Positions 1 through 44,684 of a stretch of DNA of 54,375 nucleotides are shown here, piece after piece. Made by a program: the position numbers and the translations under genes. The notes under the pieces are model-generated. The model searched no databases. It saw only the letters and a program-made list of their open reading frames with translations, and was not told the DNA's origin. The stretch covers positions 8,463 through 62,837 of the forward strand of contig JACRLJ010000080.1 of assembly GCA_016215105.1 (NCBI GenBank), in the 5' to 3' direction. The stretch is from Candidatus Hydrogenedentota bacterium. GTDB lineage: Bacteria > Hydrogenedentota > Hydrogenedentia > Hydrogenedentales > SLHB01. Each line of letters starts with the position of its first letter. The stretch's first letter is position 1.

Positions 1-681
1 CGGCGCCTGCGTCTCGACCTTCTCCGCGGGCGCGGGTTGGGCTGCTGGATGAGCCGGCGCGGCCGGCGCCTTCTGAACCGATAGACCAAGCGAAGAAGCC
101 GTGAGATCCACGACCTTCTTTTCCCCCTCAAGGACGCGCTCGGCCACGGACTTGAAGCCATTCCAGTCGCACAGGATGGATTTGATCCGCATATCCGGAC
201 AATGCTTGCGTACGGCTTCCAGCGCCTCCTGGTCGAGAGGATTCACCATTGCCAGCGTGACGATCGACCCCAGGCGGTCGAGCGGAAGTACGCTATAGCG
301 GCGGCACAAGTCCTTCGGCACATACTGGAACAACTCGTCATTTACCAGACAATCCAGCAGACTCACGTGGGGAAGACCGAATCGCTTCGCCAGAAACGAA
401 CTGAGCAAATTCCCGTGGAGGTATCCCTTTTCGATGAGAATCTGTACCAGCGACTCGTTGCTGGTCGCATGTAATGCCAACGCCTCTTTGCGCTGCCCCT
501 CGGTAATGACGCCTTCGGTGACGAGGATCTCGCCAAGCGTCTTCGTAATTTTGGGCTTTGCCGGAGCAGAAGCTGCCGCGGCCGACGCACTCGGGCCCCG
601 GGCCGCCGTCGTGACACCCGCCGGAGGGATCACTTTCGCAGGCGCGCTTTCCGTCTTCTTGCTCTTACCCCACCCAAGCAC
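1..681 (-). CDS. MshEN (GspE/PilB N-terminal type) domain protein, 3' part outside window
   Basis: The reading frame is open from a GTG at 681 down to base 1, giving 227 residues, and the gene continues beyond the window edge. The GTG is preceded by AAGGAGA at good spacing. After an Ala/Pro-rich head (residues about 10-45) comes the two-half MshEN pattern, LGEILVTEG (about 52-60) and LVQILIEKGYLHG followed by LAKRFGLPHVSLLDC. The downstream alpha/beta part (YSVLPLDRLG, MVNPLDQEALE) is also typical of the GspE N-terminal domain. The visible part ends in an Ala/Pro-rich linker (residues about 205-227). MshEN domains bind cyclic di-GMP in pilus and type II secretion ATPases. Here the usual RLG of the first half reads TLG, so ligand binding is uncertain. 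Whether an ATPase domain follows cannot be seen; a stand-alone MshEN protein is also possible. Confidence 0.8.
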   Translation of the reverse strand, partial: MLGWGKSKKTESAPAKVIPPAGVTTAARGPSASAAAASAPAKPKITKTLGEILVTEGVITEGQRKEALALHATSNESLVQILIEKGYLHGNLLSSFLAKRFGLPHVSLLDCLVNDELFQYVPKDLCRRYSVLPLDRLGSIVTLAMVNPLDQEALEAVRKHCPDMRIKSILCDWNGFKSVAERVLEGEKKVVDLTASSLGLSVQKAPAAPAHPAAQPAPAEKVETQAP

Positions 682-29466: not shown

Positions 29467-29886
29467 ATGGGAATTCGACGTAGCTACAACGTTGACGCAC
29501 CGTGGTTTGACCCCTTTGAAACTCGACGGGAGAATCGCTCCGCTCCGCGTTTCGAAATGCCGATGAAGATAACCCTCGCTGTAGAGGACCCTGTGCGCAA
29601 GGGACAGTTGGTTGGGCCGGGATTGGTCGGCGATATTTCGATGTCGGGCGTGTCGGTCCGCACCAAACACAACTTGTCGAAGCAGCAGAAGGTGAACGTA
29701 GAGCTTTCCACAGACATGTGTTCCGAAGACCTCTGCGTGGCGCCGGCTTCGGTCGAGTCGGGCGACGGGACACAGATCCGGGCCGGGCTCCAATTCGGCG
29801 ATTCGCTCATCCAAAACATCGAGTTTGCCATGTTTATCGACCATCTTCAGAGCCGCGCTCGCCAGTCCCAAGTACGAAGGGGGTAG
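29467..29886 (+). CDS. PilZ domain protein
   Basis: A 139-residue single-domain protein. The cyclic di-GMP-binding arginine motif is seen in RRENRSAPRFEM (RxxxR, near residues 20-30), and the second motif is DISMSGVSV (D-x-S-x-x-G, near 58). The rest follows the PilZ beta-barrel pattern (VNVELST, IRAGLQF). Such proteins transmit c-di-GMP levels to motility, pilus or polysaccharide systems. It has its own consensus promoter and no cotranscribed partner. The ribosome binding site is weak (GGAGGTCGG lies 12 nt upstream). Confidence 0.85.
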   Translation: MGIRRSYNVDAPWFDPFETRRENRSAPRFEMPMKITLAVEDPVRKGQLVGPGLVGDISMSGVSVRTKHNLSKQQKVNVELSTDMCSEDLCVAPASVESGDGTQIRAGLQFGDSLIQNIEFAMFIDHLQSRARQSQVRRG

Positions 29887-32995: not shown

Positions 32996-35900
32996 ATGTC
33001 TCAAGAGAAAGAACACGGCGCGGAAGAAAAACAGCGCGGCGAAGCCGACATCGCCCTGCCCATGAGCCAGGACGAACTCGACGCGCTTCTTTCCACGCTG
33101 GACGATAAGCCGGTGCCCTCTCCCTCCTCTGGTAGTGCGGACGCTTCTCCCGACGCTCCTCCCGCCAATGGGGCGTCTGCACCCCACGATTTCCCCGCAG
33201 ATGTGGCCCCGGAACCGGACGCCGTTTCACTGGAGGAAACCGACAATCAGGCCGCCGACATCGACGGTCTGTTAGGGAAAGACTCCGAACAACCGCTAGT
33301 GAATCATGACCTCGATGAGATGTTACCGGCGGCTCCGACGGCAGCGGGCGGGCCGGATGCCGAGGGCGTGCTCGGTCAGTCCGAGATCGACGACCTCCTT
33401 GCCAGCCTTCAGGGCGTTTCGGCGCCCGCGAGCGCAGCCCCGCCGGCGCCACCACCCCAGAATAACGAAGACGATTCTGCTATCACTCAGGACGTCCTTG
33501 CTGCCCTGATGAACGCGGGCAATGATGTCGCTTCCGCAGGCGCCTCGATAACCAACGAGAATCTGGCTGCCGCCGTTCCACCTGACGAGACGGACGAATC
33601 CGCGATCTCCCAGGACATCCTCGATGCGCTAACCAAGGAAGCCGCGGTCTATGTTCCACCTCAGGAACGCAGCCCGCAAGTTGTTGCCGCCGTTCCCGAG
33701 GCGCAAGCCAACGACTCCGCCGCCCTTCCCGAACCGAAAAGCAAGATCGAACGTTCCCAGGCGCCGCGGGAAGAGCGTTCTCGGGCGCCAGAACAGCCCC
33801 CCGAAGGCGGTCCGTTGCCCGGCGAGCCTCCATCGGTGCGCATGCGACGCCAAGCGCCGCGTTCCGCCGTTAGCCTCCTGAAGATTGTCAGTTCCTTGGC
33901 TGCCGGGATAATTATCGCATCGGGTACCTACGTCTATCTCGTGCGCCACCAAGAAGTGACTCCCGATCTCGGCGCGGTAGCGCCCGCGCAGAAGTCAACG
34001 GACTTGCGAACCGCGATGACGGATGCGAGCGCCAAGTTGAAGGCCGAAGCGTATTCCGATGCGATCGCTCTAATCGACCCAGCAATAGCCGCCAATCCAA
34101 AAAGCCCGGATCTGATCGACGCGCAGTATTTGCGGGCGGAAGCAAAGGTCCGTGAACTCGGCATTCTGTCCGGCGCGGCGCAGAAGGCTAAGGACCTTCC
34201 GGTAAAGGCGACCGCACTGGAGGGAGAGAAGAAAGGCGAGGGGACAAAACCGGCCGTCTCTCGCGGAGAGGCCCTGGATTCCCTTCTTGGAGATTTGGAT
34301 AAGCTGACCCATTCGGCGCCAGACCATCCCAAGGTCGAGCAGGCGCTGCTTTGGCAAGCCCGAATCAATGACCTTCAAGACAACCCGATTGAGGCGCGGC
34401 GAATATACAACGAAGTCCTTGAGAAGTTTGCAACGACCCCGGATCTCGATCATGTTCTGCTCGCGGCCTCGAAGACCGCGATCAAGCTGCGCCTTGGACC
34501 GGAGGCCGTCGCGCTCTTAAGCCGGCTGACGCACGATATCCCGGGGTCACCTTTAGCGGGAGAAGCGCATGTGCTGCTGGGAGACGCCTACGCGCTCTCG
34601 GGGGACGCAAAGAACGCCAAGTCCGAATACGACCGCATCGTAGAGGCGCAGCCTGATACCGCGCTCGGCGCGGAGGCCTACGCCCGGTTGGGACAACTGG
34701 CGTACGACGGCGGAGACTTCTTGGAGGCAATTCATCAGCTCGAAAAGCGGCTGAGTTCAGCCACCACCATCCAGGGAAACGAGCCGGTCTATCTGATGTT
34801 GGCGCGCTCGTACAAATCGGCGGGCAAACTCAAAGAGGCGGAAAGGGTCGTGCGCGAACTGCTCGACTTCTTTGAGCCGGGTGACACCACTCCAGCCGCG
34901 TTCGTGCTACTGTGCGAAATTCTGGACGCGGAAGGCCAGCGCGACGAAGCCAAACGGCTCGCTAGTCAGACCTCCTTGCGCTATCCCGAGAATCCAATGG
35001 CGCTGGCAAATGAGGGGAGACTCCTGGGCGAGTCCGGCGAGTTTGACGCGGCCGGCAAGGCGCTAATGGCGGCGGACGCGGCCGGCGCCAACGATCCGAA
35101 TGTTCTACTTGCAGCCGGAAAGTACTTTCGCCAAGCGGAACAATTTCCGGACGCGAAGACTGCCCTGGAAAAACTCGAGGAGAACTATGGCGGGCAGCCC
35201 GAAGCGTTCGAGGGCAACATCGAGTTGTCGAAGACCCTGTACGATATGGGCAAAATCCGAGACGGATTGCAGCGTCTCGAAGACCTCTCGACAGCGACCG
35301 AAGGTAAGCCGCAACGCCTTCCGGTCTTGTTGGCGCTGGGAAAGATGTACCAGGACTTGGGACTCGATACCCGCGCGGCAGGCATCTTGCGGGAGGCCTC
35401 CTTTCTGACGGCAGAGCCGGAAGTATTGGCGAAAGCCGCCACCGCGCTGCTGAGCGCAGGTCTTGGAACCGACGGACTATCTCTCGCCGGCCGAGTAGAC
35501 GTGTCCAAGCTCAAAGGGAAGTCGGCCTACGAATTCCTGTCTCGCTACGGCGAGGCGTTACTTCGCACGGATTCCTCGAAGGCCATCGAGAAGATGGAAG
35601 AGGCTTATGCTTCGTATCCGGAAGAACGCACCGAGCGGGGCGATCAAAAACTGCTCGAAGCGTACTTGACCACGGACAGGTCAGCGCGGGCCCGGGCGTT
35701 GGTTATGGATATCGAGGCATTGGCGCGGCGCAAACCGGTCGAGCACGCCCGGCTCGAACGCGCTGCGAACGCCTGGGGCAACTACCTCTACGCGCGCGGT
35801 GATTTTAGGGCCGCCGCGGACGCCTACGCGCTGTCGGAGAACGGAGCCGACCCCGCGAGCACGGAGGCCCAGTGGGCGGCCTATCAGCGCGCCAATGCGC

Positions 35901-36070
35901 TTCGGCGCCTTTCCGACTTTTCCGCCAGCGAGGCCATCTACGACAAAATATCCAAGGGCACGGCAGCCTGGAAGGAAAACGCCCGCGTGAAATCGGAGTA
36001 CGTGAGACTTCAAGAACGTCTGCGGGAAAATCCGCTGGCGCTGACCGCTGGGGAGCCTGTCACGCCGTGA
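32996..36070 (+). CDS. Membrane TPR protein with four FliM-type N-terminal peptide motifs
   Basis: A 1024-residue protein, ATG with AAGG 7 nt upstream. Residues 1-288 are disordered (Pro/Ala/Glu-rich) and hold four copies of a FliM-N-like peptide: SQDELDALL (24-32), GQSEIDDLL (127-135), TQDVLAALM (164-172) and SQDILDALT (205-213). One transmembrane helix spans about 291-315. Residues about 330-1010 are TPR repeats, predicted periplasmic. In FliM the peptide SQAEIDALL binds phosphorylated CheY. The gene overlaps the next one by 3-4 bp, and a histidine kinase and response regulator follow. It may recruit a receiver domain or flagellar-switch-type partner to the membrane. No named family was recognised for the whole protein. 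Confidence 0.75.
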   Translation: MSQEKEHGAEEKQRGEADIALPMSQDELDALLSTLDDKPVPSPSSGSADASPDAPPANGASAPHDFPADVAPEPDAVSLEETDNQAADIDGLLGKDSEQPLVNHDLDEMLPAAPTAAGGPDAEGVLGQSEIDDLLASLQGVSAPASAAPPAPPPQNNEDDSAITQDVLAALMNAGNDVASAGASITNENLAAAVPPDETDESAISQDILDALTKEAAVYVPPQERSPQVVAAVPEAQANDSAALPEPKSKIERSQAPREERSRAPEQPPEGGPLPGEPPSVRMRRQAPRSAVSLLKIVSSLAAGIIIASGTYVYLVRHQEVTPDLGAVAPAQKSTDLRTAMTDASAKLKAEAYSDAIALIDPAIAANPKSPDLIDAQYLRAEAKVRELGILSGAAQKAKDLPVKATALEGEKKGEGTKPAVSRGEALDSLLGDLDKLTHSAPDHPKVEQALLWQARINDLQDNPIEARRIYNEVLEKFATTPDLDHVLLAASKTAIKLRLGPEAVALLSRLTHDIPGSPLAGEAHVLLGDAYALSGDAKNAKSEYDRIVEAQPDTALGAEAYARLGQLAYDGGDFLEAIHQLEKRLSSATTIQGNEPVYLMLARSYKSAGKLKEAERVVRELLDFFEPGDTTPAAFVLLCEILDAEGQRDEAKRLASQTSLRYPENPMALANEGRLLGESGEFDAAGKALMAADAAGANDPNVLLAAGKYFRQAEQFPDAKTALEKLEENYGGQPEAFEGNIELSKTLYDMGKIRDGLQRLEDLSTATEGKPQRLPVLLALGKMYQDLGLDTRAAGILREASFLTAEPEVLAKAATALLSAGLGTDGLSLAGRVDVSKLKGKSAYEFLSRYGEALLRTDSSKAIEKMEEAYASYPEERTERGDQKLLEAYLTTDRSARARALVMDIEALARRKPVEHARLERAANAWGNYLYARGDFRAAADAYALSENGADPASTEAQWAAYQRANALRRLSDFSASEAIYDKISKGTAAWKENARVKSEYVRLQERLRENPLALTAGEPVTP

Positions 36071-36510
36071 ATAATGTATCGCTGAGCGAGCGTATGAAAG
36101 ATTATTTTACGCGTCAGATCAACTGGCTCGATGAGTTGGTGATTGGATTTGATTCGCTCGAAATTGACCTCGCTGCAAACGATTTGCGGCGATTGATGGA
36201 CAAGCAAGCGGAGAACGCGAAGAAGACACAGGATTTGGAGCTGGAGTTTTCCGCATTGTGGAAAGAGTGGGAGGCCTCATACGGTTCGATTCCGGAATCC
36301 GAACGCGAAGACATTGCCGCGATGGCGCGCCGCGCGGAGGAATTGTCGCTGCGCCTTGCCAGTTTGAGCGAGAACGCGGTAAACCGTGTCGAGGAAGAGC
36401 TCACCGAAGTGAAGGACGCAATTCTGTTTGCGCGGCGCAGCAGGGAGAATATGAGGCGCTATTCCCAGGACTCCGGGCCGGATCCAGGCTTCATGGATAA
36501 GAAAGCATGA
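36067..36510 (+). CDS. Small helical coiled-coil protein, function unknown
   Basis: A 147-residue all-helical protein. GTG 36067 overlaps the preceding stop codon (GTGA); ATG 36094 is an alternative start. Its stop overlaps the kinase ATG (ATGA), so it is translationally coupled on both sides. Charged heptad-like stretches and the C-terminal NRVEEELTEVKDAILFARRS segment recall small flagellar chaperones of the FlgN/FliT kind, but the similarity is only in general shape. Its place between a FliM-motif protein and a FleS-like kinase makes a flagellar or switch-related role plausible, not shown. Confidence 0.6.
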   Translation: MNNVSLSERMKDYFTRQINWLDELVIGFDSLEIDLAANDLRRLMDKQAENAKKTQDLELEFSALWKEWEASYGSIPESEREDIAAMARRAEELSLRLASLSENAVNRVEEELTEVKDAILFARRSRENMRRYSQDSGPDPGFMDKKA

Positions 36511-37658
36511 CCGAAACCAATGTGGATATGCGGACGCTTGCCGAGGCGTTCGAGTTGTTCAACCAAACCACCCGCTCACTCGAAGAGTCCTATCGTCTGC
36601 TCGAACAGCGTGTGCGGGAATTGGACCAGGAACTGGCGGCGAAGAACCGCGAGCTCGCGTTTACCAGCGACTACCTCAATTACATTCTCGAAAGCATGTC
36701 GGACGGCGTGATTGCGATAGACTCCGAAGGTATCGTTACTGCGTTCAATCGCGCGGCGGGCGAAGTGCTAGGCTATTCCCCGGAGGAGGCGGTTGGCAAT
36801 CCATTCCAGCAAGTCTTTGGCCGGGAGTTCTCCGCCGAGAGCGGACGCGCTCGCATCATCGAATTGACGGCAAAAAGCGGCAAGCGGGTTCCTGTAAGTG
36901 AAAATGACTCACCGCTTCACGATCGGACCGGGCGCCGAATCGGAACCGTGAAAGTATTTCACGACCTGAGCGAGGTCGAGGCCCTGCGTGAGCAGGTCCG
37001 CCGCAAAGACCGTCTGGCTGCAATAGGAGAGATGGCCGCGACCGTTGCGCATGAGATTCGAAATCCCTTGGGTGGTATCCGTGGCTTTGCCGCGCTTTTG
37101 GCGCGCGATTTCGATGACCTCGACCCGCGCAAGCGCCTCGTCGAAAAAATCCTCACCGGAACACGAAATCTCGACCGCGTGGTCACGGAGCTACTCGAGT
37201 ATACGCGGCCTGTCGAGCTTCGTCTTCGCTCGACCCTTTGCTCCGACTTGATCGAGGCGGCGGTTGGCTATCTTGAACTGGGAAACCGGGCGGTTTCCAT
37301 CAATAACCGGGTCGGCGCCGATGTCTGTGCGCTGGCCGACCCCGATAAGCTGCGCCAGGTGCTGCTCAACATCCTGATCAATTCGGTCCAAAGCATTGAA
37401 CAGTGCGGGCTGATCGAGATCACGGCCTCCACGGACAAAGACGCCATCACTATTCTCGTGCGCGATACGGGTTGCGGCATGAGCCGCGAACACCTGGAAC
37501 AAGTCTTTTCGCCTTTCTTCACGACGAAGGAGAAAGGTACCGGTCTTGGGTTGGCAGTGGCCGCCAAGATCGTTGAAGGCCATGGCGGCTGGTTGAAAGC
37601 GGAAAGTGAACTGGGCAAAGGGACCACCATGATGGTTTGTCTTCCCAGGGCGGATTGA
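36507..37658 (+). CDS. FleS/FlrB-like PAS histidine kinase
   Basis: A 383-residue soluble sensor kinase. The N-terminal AEAFELFNQTTRSLEESY and the following LEQRVRELDQELAAKNREL coiled coil match the opening of FleS/FlrB, the kinases of the sigma-54 flagellar hierarchy. A PAS domain spans about 50-160 (ILESMSDGVIAIDSEG). The phosphoacceptor is in the H-box VAHEIRNPLGG near residue 185. The N-box QVLLNILINSVQ and G-boxes DTGCGMS and GTGLGLAVA are complete. No transmembrane segment is present. It lies 3 bp before its response regulator. Similar NtrB-type kinases share the domains, so assignment to FleS/FlrB rests on the N-terminus. Confidence 0.85.
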   Translation: MTETNVDMRTLAEAFELFNQTTRSLEESYRLLEQRVRELDQELAAKNRELAFTSDYLNYILESMSDGVIAIDSEGIVTAFNRAAGEVLGYSPEEAVGNPFQQVFGREFSAESGRARIIELTAKSGKRVPVSENDSPLHDRTGRRIGTVKVFHDLSEVEALREQVRRKDRLAAIGEMAATVAHEIRNPLGGIRGFAALLARDFDDLDPRKRLVEKILTGTRNLDRVVTELLEYTRPVELRLRSTLCSDLIEAAVGYLELGNRAVSINNRVGADVCALADPDKLRQVLLNILINSVQSIEQCGLIEITASTDKDAITILVRDTGCGMSREHLEQVFSPFFTTKEKGTGLGLAVAAKIVEGHGGWLKAESELGKGTTMMVCLPRAD

Positions 37659-37661
37659 ACT

Positions 37662-39035
37662 ATGGCGACAGCGAGAATACTGGTAATAGACGACGAATCC
37701 CTGATGCGCGACTACGTGCAGGAGGCGTTGAGCCGGGCCGGATACGACGTCGAGGCCGCGGCGAACGGAAAAGACGGCATCGAAACCATGCGCCAGCGGT
37801 CATTCGATGTCGTGATCACGGATCTCAAGATGGCGCCGATGGACGGCCTCGAAGTGCTGCGGAAGGTCGCTGACGATAGTCCCGATACGTGTTGTATCGT
37901 CATGACTGCGTACGGAACCATCGAGACCGCGGTCGGGGCCTTGAAAGCCGGCGCCGACGACTACATCCTCAAGCCCTTCGCGCCGGACGAACTCGAGGTC
38001 GCTGTAACGCGCGCGCTCGAACGCCGCCAACTCGCGCAAGAAAACCGGTACCTGCGGGCCGAGATCAACCAACGCTACGACTTCGGTTCGATGGTGGGGG
38101 AGAGCCCCGCCATCCGTCAGGTGTACGAACAAATCAAGAAGGTTGCAAATAGCCGCGCCACCATACTCATCCGGGGCGAGAGCGGCACCGGCAAAGAACT
38201 CGTCGCCCGCGCAATTCACTTTTCCGGCGCGCGGCGTGACCGCCCGTTTATCAAAGTGAACTGCGCGGCGCTGTCCGCAGGCTTGCTCGAAAGCGAGTTG
38301 TTTGGCCACGAGAAAGGCTCTTTCACGGGCGCTCACGAGCGCAAAGTCGGCCGTTTCGAGTTGGCCGACACCGGGACGCTGCTGCTCGATGAAGTGAGCG
38401 AGATCAGCCTCGAGCTCCAACCCAAGCTCCTGCGCGCGTTGCAGGAACGTGAATTCGAGCGAGTGGGGGGGACGCGGACCATTTCTGTCGACACCCGCAT
38501 CATCGGCACCTCCAATCGCAACCTCGAAGACGCCGTGCATCGGAATACATTCCGCGAAGACCTCTTCTTCCGTCTCAACGTGATTCCCATCCACTTGCCG
38601 GCCTTGCGTGATAGAAGAGAAGATATTCCGGCCCTCGCCGACTTCTTCCTCAAACGTTACGCGTCCGAAAATGGACGCGACGCTACCGGATTCAGCCCAC
38701 AGGCGCTGGCCCTTTTCCAAGACTATCCGTGGCCCGGCAACATCCGCGAACTGTCCAACGCGGTCGAACGCGCCGTGGTCATGTCCTCGGGGCCAGTCCT
38801 TGGCGTGGACCTATTCTCGCTGACCGGTGGCCGGCCCAAGACGATCAACGGAAACGCAGTTAGCGTTGCGATGGGCGCCACCGTCGCAGAAATGGAACGC
38901 GAACTCATCATGCGCACCCTCGAACATTGCAGCCAAAACCGCACCCAAGCGGCAAAAGTGCTCGACATCAGCGTCCGCACCCTCCGCAACAAACTAAAAG
39001 AGTACGGCGCCGCCGACGACGGAGACGGAGAGTGA
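37662..39035 (+). CDS. FleR/FlrC-like sigma-54 dependent response regulator
   Basis: A 457-residue NtrC-family activator. The receiver domain has phosphoacceptor Asp in VVITDLKM (near residue 51) and KPF near 106. The AAA+ domain has Walker A GESGTGKE, the sigma-54 contact loop GSFTGA (a common variant of GAFTGA) and Walker B TLLLDEVSEI. A Fis-type helix-turn-helix ends the protein (CSQNRTQAAKVLDISVRTLRNKL). As partner of the FleS-like kinase it should activate sigma-54 promoters, classically for mid-class flagellar genes, none of which are in the window. Confidence 0.88.
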   Translation: MATARILVIDDESLMRDYVQEALSRAGYDVEAAANGKDGIETMRQRSFDVVITDLKMAPMDGLEVLRKVADDSPDTCCIVMTAYGTIETAVGALKAGADDYILKPFAPDELEVAVTRALERRQLAQENRYLRAEINQRYDFGSMVGESPAIRQVYEQIKKVANSRATILIRGESGTGKELVARAIHFSGARRDRPFIKVNCAALSAGLLESELFGHEKGSFTGAHERKVGRFELADTGTLLLDEVSEISLELQPKLLRALQEREFERVGGTRTISVDTRIIGTSNRNLEDAVHRNTFREDLFFRLNVIPIHLPALRDRREDIPALADFFLKRYASENGRDATGFSPQALALFQDYPWPGNIRELSNAVERAVVMSSGPVLGVDLFSLTGGRPKTINGNAVSVAMGATVAEMERELIMRTLEHCSQNRTQAAKVLDISVRTLRNKLKEYGAADDGDGE

Positions 39036-39039
39036 CCCG

Positions 39040-39393
39040 GTGACGCAATTGGCGAGAACGACCAAAGAATCTCTTGGACCCCGCGTTCAACAGATTCTCG
39101 GACAGCTGCGGTCTCGTCTTGAGGCGCTCTATGGCGAGCGGATGGAGAAGCTCGTACTCTTTGGCTCGTACGCCCGAGGCGAAGCCGAACCCGATTCCGA
39201 TATTGACGTTATGGTGGCGCTTCGGGACCCCGTGGATGTCCACGAGGAGATACTGCGGTCAGAGCACATTGTCGCAGCCCTTTCACTTGAGTTTGATACA
39301 GTCCTATCGTGCGCCTTTGTTTCAACATCGCGCTTCGACGCAGAGCAGAGTCCTTTGCTTATCAATGTTCGGCACGAAGGGGTTGCTATATGA
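39040..39393 (+). CDS. MNT-type minimal nucleotidyltransferase
   Basis: A 117-residue protein starting at GTG 39040. The nucleotidyltransferase motif LFGSYARGEAEPDSDIDVMV (G-S and D-x-D) is intact. It overlaps the HEPN gene by 4 bp (ATGA). MNT proteins of this type act as antitoxins that add AMP to, or otherwise inactivate, a HEPN ribonuclease toxin. It begins only 4 bp after the FleR/FlrC-like gene, so it may be read through from that operon. Confidence 0.85.
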   Translation: MTQLARTTKESLGPRVQQILGQLRSRLEALYGERMEKLVLFGSYARGEAEPDSDIDVMVALRDPVDVHEEILRSEHIVAALSLEFDTVLSCAFVSTSRFDAEQSPLLINVRHEGVAI

Positions 39394-39764
39394 CTGACCA
39401 TCAGGCGGCGCTCGTGGAGAAAGCACGATCAAGCATAGACGCGGCCTCGTTCTTGGTAGAGAAAGGGTTTTTCGATATTGCCGTTTCTCGCGCTTACTAC
39501 GCCATGTTCTATGTCGCCGAAGCGTTTCTGCACGGCGAAGGTCTGGAGTTCTCAAAACACTCTGCCGTTGTCGCAGCGTTTGGACAGCGGTTTGCGAAGA
39601 CCGGCCGCGTCCCGGAGGCGTACCATCGGTACCTGATTTCTGCCAATCAAGCTCGCACGGACAGCGACTACGACGTAAGAGCGGCGTTTTCGATGGAAGC
39701 CGCCCATGTACAGATTGAACGCGCGCGCGAATTTCTGAGCTTCGGCGAAAAATATCTTTCATGA
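39390..39764 (+). CDS. HEPN domain protein
   Basis: A 124-residue helical protein of the HEPN superfamily with the signature SRAYYAMFYVAEAFL (residues 30-44). The canonical R-x(4-6)-H ribonuclease motif is not obvious: the C-terminal half has R91-TDSDYDVR rather than RX4HXY. Thus it may be a substrate-binding or inactive HEPN, or a toxin of a divergent type. Together with the MNT gene it forms a standard two-gene toxin-antitoxin-like module. I used ATG 39390; the frame is open upstream within the MNT gene. Confidence 0.82.
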   Translation: MTDHQAALVEKARSSIDAASFLVEKGFFDIAVSRAYYAMFYVAEAFLHGEGLEFSKHSAVVAAFGQRFAKTGRVPEAYHRYLISANQARTDSDYDVRAAFSMEAAHVQIERAREFLSFGEKYLS

Positions 39765-43643: not shown

Positions 43644-44684
43644 TTACTGAGCGGTCATCGCTTGGCGCGCAGTCGCCTCCGATATGACGTGTTCGTCGAG
43701 CAACCGCTCGATGTGTTCTCCCATGGTCTGGCAGCAATCGGACCAGGGGCTCTTGCGCGCCATGAAGTCGGCTCCCGATGCGATGGCGTTGCGCATTTCC
43801 GCGTCTGGAATGAGAACGCCGTATGCGGCGACGCGTCCGTGACCGTCGGCGCGTGGGAGTAGACGCTGGGCGCAAACAGCCCTCAGCGTCGCAGCTAACG
43901 TTTTGCGCGCCGTTGGACGCAGTTCGTCGGGGAACACCTCGAGGATGCGGTAGACGGTGCCTTCGGGCGAATCCGCGTGAATCTGCGTCAGCACGAGATG
44001 GCCGGTTTCGGCGACCGTCATGCAGGCTTGAAGTTCTTCGACGGTCGTGACTTCACCCACCATAAGTACATCCAGATCCTGCGCCATAGCAGCTTGAATC
44101 CCGGCTAGACGAGTGGGAACGTCCTGGCCGACTTCGCGTTGCTGGATTAACGCCATCTTTGGCGTTACGTGAAGGTGGGCTGGAGACTCCACGGTGCAAA
44201 TATGGCGCGCCAAATGAGCGTTGATGTGGTCAAGCAATCCATACATCGCCGTCGTCTTCCCCGAACCGGTGAGGCCGGCAAACACGATTAGGCCGTGAGC
44301 CGCGAACCCCGCGTCTACCACGGCCTCGGGAAGGGCCATTTCTTTGACCCCGTAAATGGTTGGAGGCATCACGCGGAACGCCAATGTGTACCCGCAACGC
44401 GAGCGGGCGACGGCGACACTCAAGTTGAACTCGCCGGGGCGGCCGCACGACCGTTGAAACTCGCCAAGTTCCAGGCCGATGCGCGCCAGATTCTCCTCGC
44501 CGATGAGTCCGGCCGCCAATTCGCGGGTCCGCTCCGCGGAGACCTCTTCCAAGTCCATCCGCTCGAGCTTTCCCCGCAAGCGCAAAGTGGGGGGATCGCC
44601 TGGGATAAGGTGAAGATCGCTCGCGTCGGCGTCCAACGCCGTACGGACCAAACGCTCCAGTTCAGGTGTGAAAGAGGAAACCAT
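43644..44684 (-). CDS. PilT-like ATPase
   Basis: A 346-residue secretion-type ATPase. The N-terminal part ASDLHLIPGDPPTLRLRGKL is typical for PilT. Walker A is GLTGSGKTT, Walker B VLMVGEV, and the conserved His box AETGHLVLTQIHADS is present. In PilT, Walker B usually reads ILVGEMRD; here it is MVGEVTTVEEL. The C-terminal retraction motif AIRNLIREG is changed to EMRNAIASG. PilT powers pilus retraction; this one may be a divergent retraction or secretion motor. AAGGGAG precedes the ATG. It lies 20 bp after an ECF sigma gene on the same strand. Confidence 0.85.
   Translation of the reverse strand: MVSSFTPELERLVRTALDADASDLHLIPGDPPTLRLRGKLERMDLEEVSAERTRELAAGLIGEENLARIGLELGEFQRSCGRPGEFNLSVAVARSRCGYTLAFRVMPPTIYGVKEMALPEAVVDAGFAAHGLIVFAGLTGSGKTTAMYGLLDHINAHLARHICTVESPAHLHVTPKMALIQQREVGQDVPTRLAGIQAAMAQDLDVLMVGEVTTVEELQACMTVAETGHLVLTQIHADSPEGTVYRILEVFPDELRPTARKTLAATLRAVCAQRLLPRADGHGRVAAYGVLIPDAEMRNAIASGADFMARKSPWSDCCQTMGEHIERLLDEHVISEATARQAMTAQ

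Follow-up and report, generated by a model that had tools for sequence, protein, structure and literature searches.

The window analysed here, a stretch of 54,375 nucleotides of a Candidatus Hydrogenedentota genome, encodes a membrane protein that repeats a nonapeptide resembling the N-terminus of the flagellar switch protein FliM. This raises the question of which cellular machine such a protein serves, and which partner its peptides would bind. A preliminary description of the locus had suggested a multivalent receiver-binding platform, perhaps for switch, pilus or signaling complexes.

Architecture of the protein and of its motif array

The first 296 residues of the 1,024-residue protein are acidic and rich in proline and alanine, and no folded-domain match was found in them. 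They are followed by a single hydrophobic helix (approximately residues 297-316) and then by TPR-family matches in Pfam. An AlphaFold2 model of the part extending from this helix to the C-terminal end, built with 42 homologues, revealed an all-helical TPR superhelix with a mean pLDDT of 91.6 and no strand of three residues or longer. Taken on its own, the tail was predicted to be disordered in a single-sequence prediction (mean pLDDT 47.6), with short helices of low confidence located solely at the four motifs, at a SENLAAA-like element and where the membrane helix begins. Analysis of the charges flanking this helix in 44 homologues gave a mean net charge of +2.5 on the N side versus -0.6 on the C side, the N side being the more positive in 35 of the 44, and this bias would place the tail in the cytoplasm and the TPR part in the periplasm. 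The succession of disordered N-terminus, membrane helix and TPR array announced by the preliminary description is the one predicted from Pfam, AlphaFold2 and the charge bias.

Table 1. Features of the motif-bearing protein and of the genes that follow it, in window positions
Feature	Position	Strand	Basis and remarks
Membrane TPR protein, 1024 aa (disordered tail, predicted cytoplasmic; one TM helix; TPR superhelix)	32996..36070	+	ORF, Pfam, AF2, homologues
Motif 1, SQDELDALL, aa 24-32, preceded by M	33065..33091	+	FliM-type; predicted helix aa 25-35, low confidence
Motif 2, GQSEIDDLL, aa 127-135	33374..33400	+	Predicted helix aa 128-138, low confidence
Motif 3, TQDVLAALM, aa 164-172, degenerate (A for D)	33485..33511	+	Predicted helix aa 165-181, low confidence
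Tail element TNENLAAA, consensus (G)SENLAAA	33551..33574	+	26/44 homologues, 58-132 aa N-terminal of the TM helix
Motif 4, SQDILDALT, aa 205-213, membrane-proximal copy	33608..33634	+	Predicted helix aa 203-215, low confidence
Transmembrane helix, N-terminus inside by charge	33884..33943	+	AF2 helix; flank charges over 44 homologues
All-helical TPR superhelix, probably periplasmic	33998..36040	+	Pfam TPRs; AF2 model without strands, mean pLDDT 91.6
Small helical protein, possibly a FlgN/FliT-like chaperone (candidate)	36076..36510	+	Immediately downstream of the TPR gene in almost every relative
PAS-HisKA-HATPase histidine kinase, FlrB/FleS position	36507..37658	+	Pfam; conserved order
Receiver-sigma54 activator-Fis NtrC-type regulator, FlrC/FleR position	37662..39035	+	Pfam; conserved order; receiver without K92 and K119 equivalents

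The four nonapeptides first noticed by eye are all present (Table 1), and many relatives have SQDMIDSLI or a close variant in place of the fourth. None of 20,000 shuffles of the 296-residue tail contained at least three such motifs (shuffle mean 0.024). As the motif pattern was read off the data itself, the independent test is provided by the homologues. At least one motif was found in 42 of the 44 same-phylum homologues, with copy numbers from 0 to 18; the homologues of G001 and G002 have no strict motif. The tails contain 162 strict motifs in 15,804 residues, where shuffling gave a mean of 0.08; none was found in the 29,688 residues of membrane-helix and TPR sequence of the same 44 proteins. 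Chance repetition is ruled out by the shuffles and the homologues together, and the motifs, conserved in relatives and confined in their strict form to the tails, behave as the preliminary description had anticipated.

The tail consensus is L-[SDT]-Q-x-[DE]-[LI]-D-A-L-[IL], or more tightly LSQ[DE][DE][LI]DAL[IL], and a hydrophobic residue directly precedes the motif serine in about 92% of the tail motifs, as in FliM. Copies are often spaced by 28-33 residues, and the highest number, 18, is reached in the 1,560-residue protein of G055, where 84-bp DNA units are 95% alike; such near-identical units indicate that arrays grow by tandem duplication. A second conserved element, (G)SENLAAA, lies in the tail beside the FliM-type motifs. 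The tail of the window protein also includes two weaker motif look-alikes, ADIDGLL and HDLDEML. A further repeated pattern, approximately PLVxxDMDERL, occurs between the motifs in the tails L042, L048 and L058, and the window reads PLVNHDLDEML at about 33290-33330.

Flagellar association and known motor scaffolds

Strong homologues of the TPR protein were found in 46 of 60 genomes of the same order, and in 35 of 48 at E<1e-40. When each genome was scored both for these homologues and for the C-ring domain FliMN_C (PF01052), 45 genomes had both, 15 had neither and 5 were discordant (Fisher p=3e-10, uncorrected for phylogeny). The discordant genomes are all incomplete MAGs, one with the TPR protein only (60% complete) and four with the C-ring only (66-84% complete). 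Both are absent from G006 (family f1), G046 (f6), G028 (f5) and most of f10, in which genus g35 has both, and absences spread over several families argue against one inherited coincidence. Within f10 (G033, G039, G048, G054, G056, G058-G064), the C-ring is mostly absent, as are CheA and MCPs where scored; g35 has all of them.

Gene order points in the same direction. The TPR gene, the small helical ORF, the PAS kinase and the NtrC-type regulator follow each other in nearly every relative with sufficient downstream sequence, which bears out the operon link to a FleS/FleR-like pair put forward initially. In G052 this operon continues with a flgB-like gene, fliF, fliG, fliI, a MotE-like gene, flgD, flgE, motA and motB, and flgB/fliF also lie downstream of it in G015, G009, G040 and G035; no flgB/fliF-type genes follow the operon in the window genome. 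On these genomic grounds the protein is flagellar. Its flagellar nature and the small helical ORF, for which no significant Pfam or NCBIfam match was obtained, had both been overlooked by the preliminary description. Among the options that it left open, the switch was rightly guessed, as the protein tracks the C-ring; judged by this co-occurrence with the C-ring, a type IV pilus platform is not supported.

Some observations concern the surroundings of the operon. The window contains, by eye, a GspE/PilB-like ORF (1-681, minus strand) and a PilT-like ORF (43644-44684, minus strand), which makes type IV pili probable in this genome as well. A PilZ-domain ORF (29467-29886; Pfam, 29.7 bits) lies upstream of the operon, and at 39040-39764 an MNT-like nucleotidyltransferase ORF followed by a HEPN-like ORF resembles an MNT-HEPN toxin-antitoxin pair. 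In G052, a second copy of the TPR protein with a shorter match (G052:C138:17677-19431) may be a paralogue or derive from a mixed strain.

The layout of tail, membrane helix and TPR array is shared with two flagellar proteins, a likeness that qualifies the earlier statement that no described protein has this architecture. PflB, located at the rim of the proximal disk in Campylobacter and Helicobacter, has a cytoplasmic N-terminal tail, one membrane helix and a TPR array, and deletion of its tail halves motility (PMC11870540). In PflB an antiparallel beta pair joins the mid-domain and the C-terminus (PMC11870540), whereas our model of the window protein has no such strand pair; the tail of the window protein is also longer and carries FliM-type motifs. 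The resemblance to PflB is one of layout, and sequence kinship is not claimed. FlcA, the collar protein of Borrelia and other spirochetes that contacts the stators, likewise has a long acidic disordered N-terminal tail, a membrane helix and a TPR part of about 600 residues (PMC8609358), and its tail and membrane helix were also visible in the spirochete FlcA frames that we read, a spirochete flagellin N-terminus query having served solely as a route to spirochete genomes. Membership of the FlcA family (NF047371) was rejected, the window protein scoring 26.4 bits over one TPR stretch against a curated cut-off of 300. The protein looks PflB/FlcA-like in its working but, given this score and the missing strand pair, is filed as neither.

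No LSQxxΦDxLL array was seen in 14 spirochete FlcA frames. The spirochete tails (L202, L209, L212) have repeats of their own, such as LNLDDLDLPD and FSLDDL, which suggests that arrays of docking peptides, with another partner, may exist on scaffold tails outside this phylum as well. MotC/MotK and PflA, the TPR partners of the MotE/FlgY/FlbB E-ring (PMC13023049), are comparable as TPR scaffolds of motors with an E-ring protein, the G052 operon including a MotE-like gene; unlike the window protein, they are described without a membrane helix and motif tail. A Foldseek search with the model placed 9hmf_K, a periplasmic scaffold chain of C. jejuni, at rank 8 amid many unrelated TPR superhelices, and this is weak evidence since TPR folds match widely; PflB was not among the PDB fold matches listed, which is no evidence of difference. 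We found no described protein with multiple FliM-type motifs in the open-access literature searched. The motif array thus appears to be what is new, the scaffold layout being already known.

The FliM N-terminal peptide and its link to chemotaxis

The tail motifs are matched by the N-terminus of FliM itself. In these genomes FliM starts with a nearly invariant MADILSQDEVDLLLSAV, the FliM of the window genome reading MADILSQDEVDLLL; the E. coli protein has ILSQAEIDALL, and CheZ ends in ASQDQVDDLLDSLGF, which includes the stretch ASQDQVDDLL. FliM N-termini, FliY N-termini and the CheZ C-terminus have the core LSQxxΦDxLL in common with the tail motifs, and in the tail the core SQxx(I/V/L)DxLL likewise sits in an otherwise disordered segment. 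A profile of 20 positions was built from 61 tail motifs, with FliM left out. In the 6.7-Mb genome, the FliM N-terminus was the best non-self match (E 0.097), ranking behind the two best sites of the TPR protein itself, which are part of the profile by construction; the remaining non-self matches, inside release factor 1, an aldo/keto reductase and a sensor kinase, were judged to be due to chance. Among 177,635 PDB sequences, the top match was FliM residues 3-20 (E 0.0039), and 4iga_B, a 20-residue FliM peptide, was also listed amid chance matches of similar score. Homologues, shuffles and both profile searches therefore agree with the proposal of multivalent, membrane-tethered FliM-type peptides. 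Unlike in FliM, the tail peptides are repeated many times and belong to a membrane-anchored protein outside the C-ring, position 9 is often I instead of L, and the protein has neither the FliM middle domain nor a Pfam match to the SpoA domain (FliMN_C, PF01052). Adjoining FliM, an ORF at L037:7593-8516 (minus strand) has a FliY-type look, with a long N-terminal part and a FliN domain, and no N-terminal FliM-type peptide of its own.

In FliM, the N-terminal EIDALL motif is the site of a first, high-affinity capture of CheY-P before the middle domain, and this capture raises the CheY-P level at the switch (PMC9126983); in Caulobacter the peptide faces outward (PMC7534056). We compared motif counts with chemotaxis genes across 43 genomes that encode the TPR protein, excluding G057 and scoring CheA by PF02895. 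The mean number of strict motifs was 5.0 in genomes with CheA (n=31) versus 1.9 in those without (n=12; one-sided Mann-Whitney p 0.002, permutation within families p 0.0015). Seven flagellated genomes without CheA or MCP signaling domains (G002, G019, G026, G034, G037, G040, G050) have 0-3 motifs, with a mean of 1.7 (stratified p 0.0028), and in genus g30, G037, which has no chemotaxis genes, has 3 copies while its congeners have 8, 12 and 18. These comparisons are affected by MAG gaps, by incomplete tails that make the counts lower bounds and by residual relatedness, and the correlation is weaker than the p values imply because the relatives are not independent. Where FliM was read in the genomes without CheA and MCPs, its N-terminal peptide was intact; together with the 0-3 motifs that persist, this indicates some use of the peptide beyond chemotactic CheY.

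The window genome has a chemotaxis cluster (G000:C99) that encodes CheA, CheW, CheX, CheD, a CheR-like protein and CheY, the CheX gene adjoining that of CheY. This CheY (L222:1492-1860) has 123 residues and shares 39% identity with the E. coli protein. It retains residues equivalent to K92, Y106 and K119, which are part of the FliM-binding face. In the neighboring NtrC-type receiver, CheY positions 92 and 119 are occupied by I and A. From these residues, CheY is a more likely docking partner than the regulator of the operon.

A putative CheY-P capture array and its alternatives

Based on these observations, we consider it fairly probable that the protein is a motor scaffold resembling PflB and FlcA, with tails that together make up a multivalent capture array for CheY-P beside the C-ring. 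As an accessory motor component anchored in the inner membrane, it would contribute its periplasmic superhelix to a scaffold around the stators and the E-ring, a position suggested by analogy with the known scaffolds, while its long disordered tail would hang beside the C-ring and offer several FliM-N peptides (LSQxEΦDxLL). Judging from its likeness to the FliM N-terminus and the CheZ tail, each copy would fold into a short helix when bound to activated CheY, at its alpha4-beta5-alpha5 face. A ring of tails could then gather CheY-P into a cloud along the rim of the rotor, where it would be locally enriched, or buffered before passing to FliM/FliN; in this way the tails may act on switching. 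Copy number would have grown by tandem duplication in strongly chemotactic lineages. Against this reading, the regulators encoded next door suggest that a role in assembly or regulation is also possible.

The main rival to CheY as docking partner is the MinD-like ATPase FlhG, alone or together with FliM/FliN, the tail then being a platform for bringing C-ring subunits to new motors or for counting them there. In monotrichous flagellates, the N-terminus is the part of FliM through which FlhG binds it (PMC12826062). FlhF was found in 48 of the 60 genomes, a set that covers almost every flagellated one, and FlhG adjoins it in all four loci read. The regulators and possible chaperone of the operon fit this function, as does the survival of the FliM N-terminus and of up to three motifs without CheA and MCPs, which FlhG, or another CheY-like protein, could explain. 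However, copy number drops without chemotaxis while FlhF stays, as in the contrast within g30, and it is not evident why FlhG binding would call for 8-18 copies, so that we regard this explanation as unlikely. Somewhat better placed, if still doubtful, is a mixed arrangement that refines and overlaps the CheY-P array, in which the membrane-proximal copy (SQDMIDSLI-like, near SENLAAA) serves an assembly partner and the distal tandem copies capture CheY-P in chemotactic lineages. G037 retains mainly membrane-proximal copies, and the near-identical copies spaced by 28-33 residues in other genomes are distal and, at the DNA level, recent (G055), but some chemotactic genomes have just one or two copies.

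Two further explanations appear weaker. The array could be a sink for CheY-P, or a site for CheX/FliY phosphatases near the motor, and damp the signal; CheZ has the same type of peptide, and the genome encodes CheX by CheY as well as a FliN-family protein with a long N-terminus by FliM. The TPR protein itself has no phosphatase domain, however, and a sink would be better sited away from the C-ring, which makes this improbable. Docking of the receiver domain in the FleR/FlrC-like protein encoded nearby, the operon-coupled option of the preliminary description, has in its favor that the genes are operon neighbors across the phylum; with K92 and K119 replaced, and with a motif number that follows the chemotaxis genes while the regulator is always present, we give it hardly any weight.

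The CheY-P array can be taken further, to a tentative proposal whose chances we judge slightly below even: a scaffold ring would present dozens to hundreds of repeat-expanded FliM-N peptides per C-ring, acting as a CheY-P antenna whose copy number outside the C-ring sets the sensitivity of the switch. CheY-P is thought to get to the switch by diffusion and then to be captured first on one FliM-N per FliM. Copy numbers of 0-18 among relatives make the idea directly testable. If true, the motor would have a new means to tune its sensitivity, in the form of an additional and expandable peptide set on a stationary scaffold, and this would provide a function for the cytoplasmic tails of motor scaffold proteins, such as the PflB tail needed for motility (PMC11870540).
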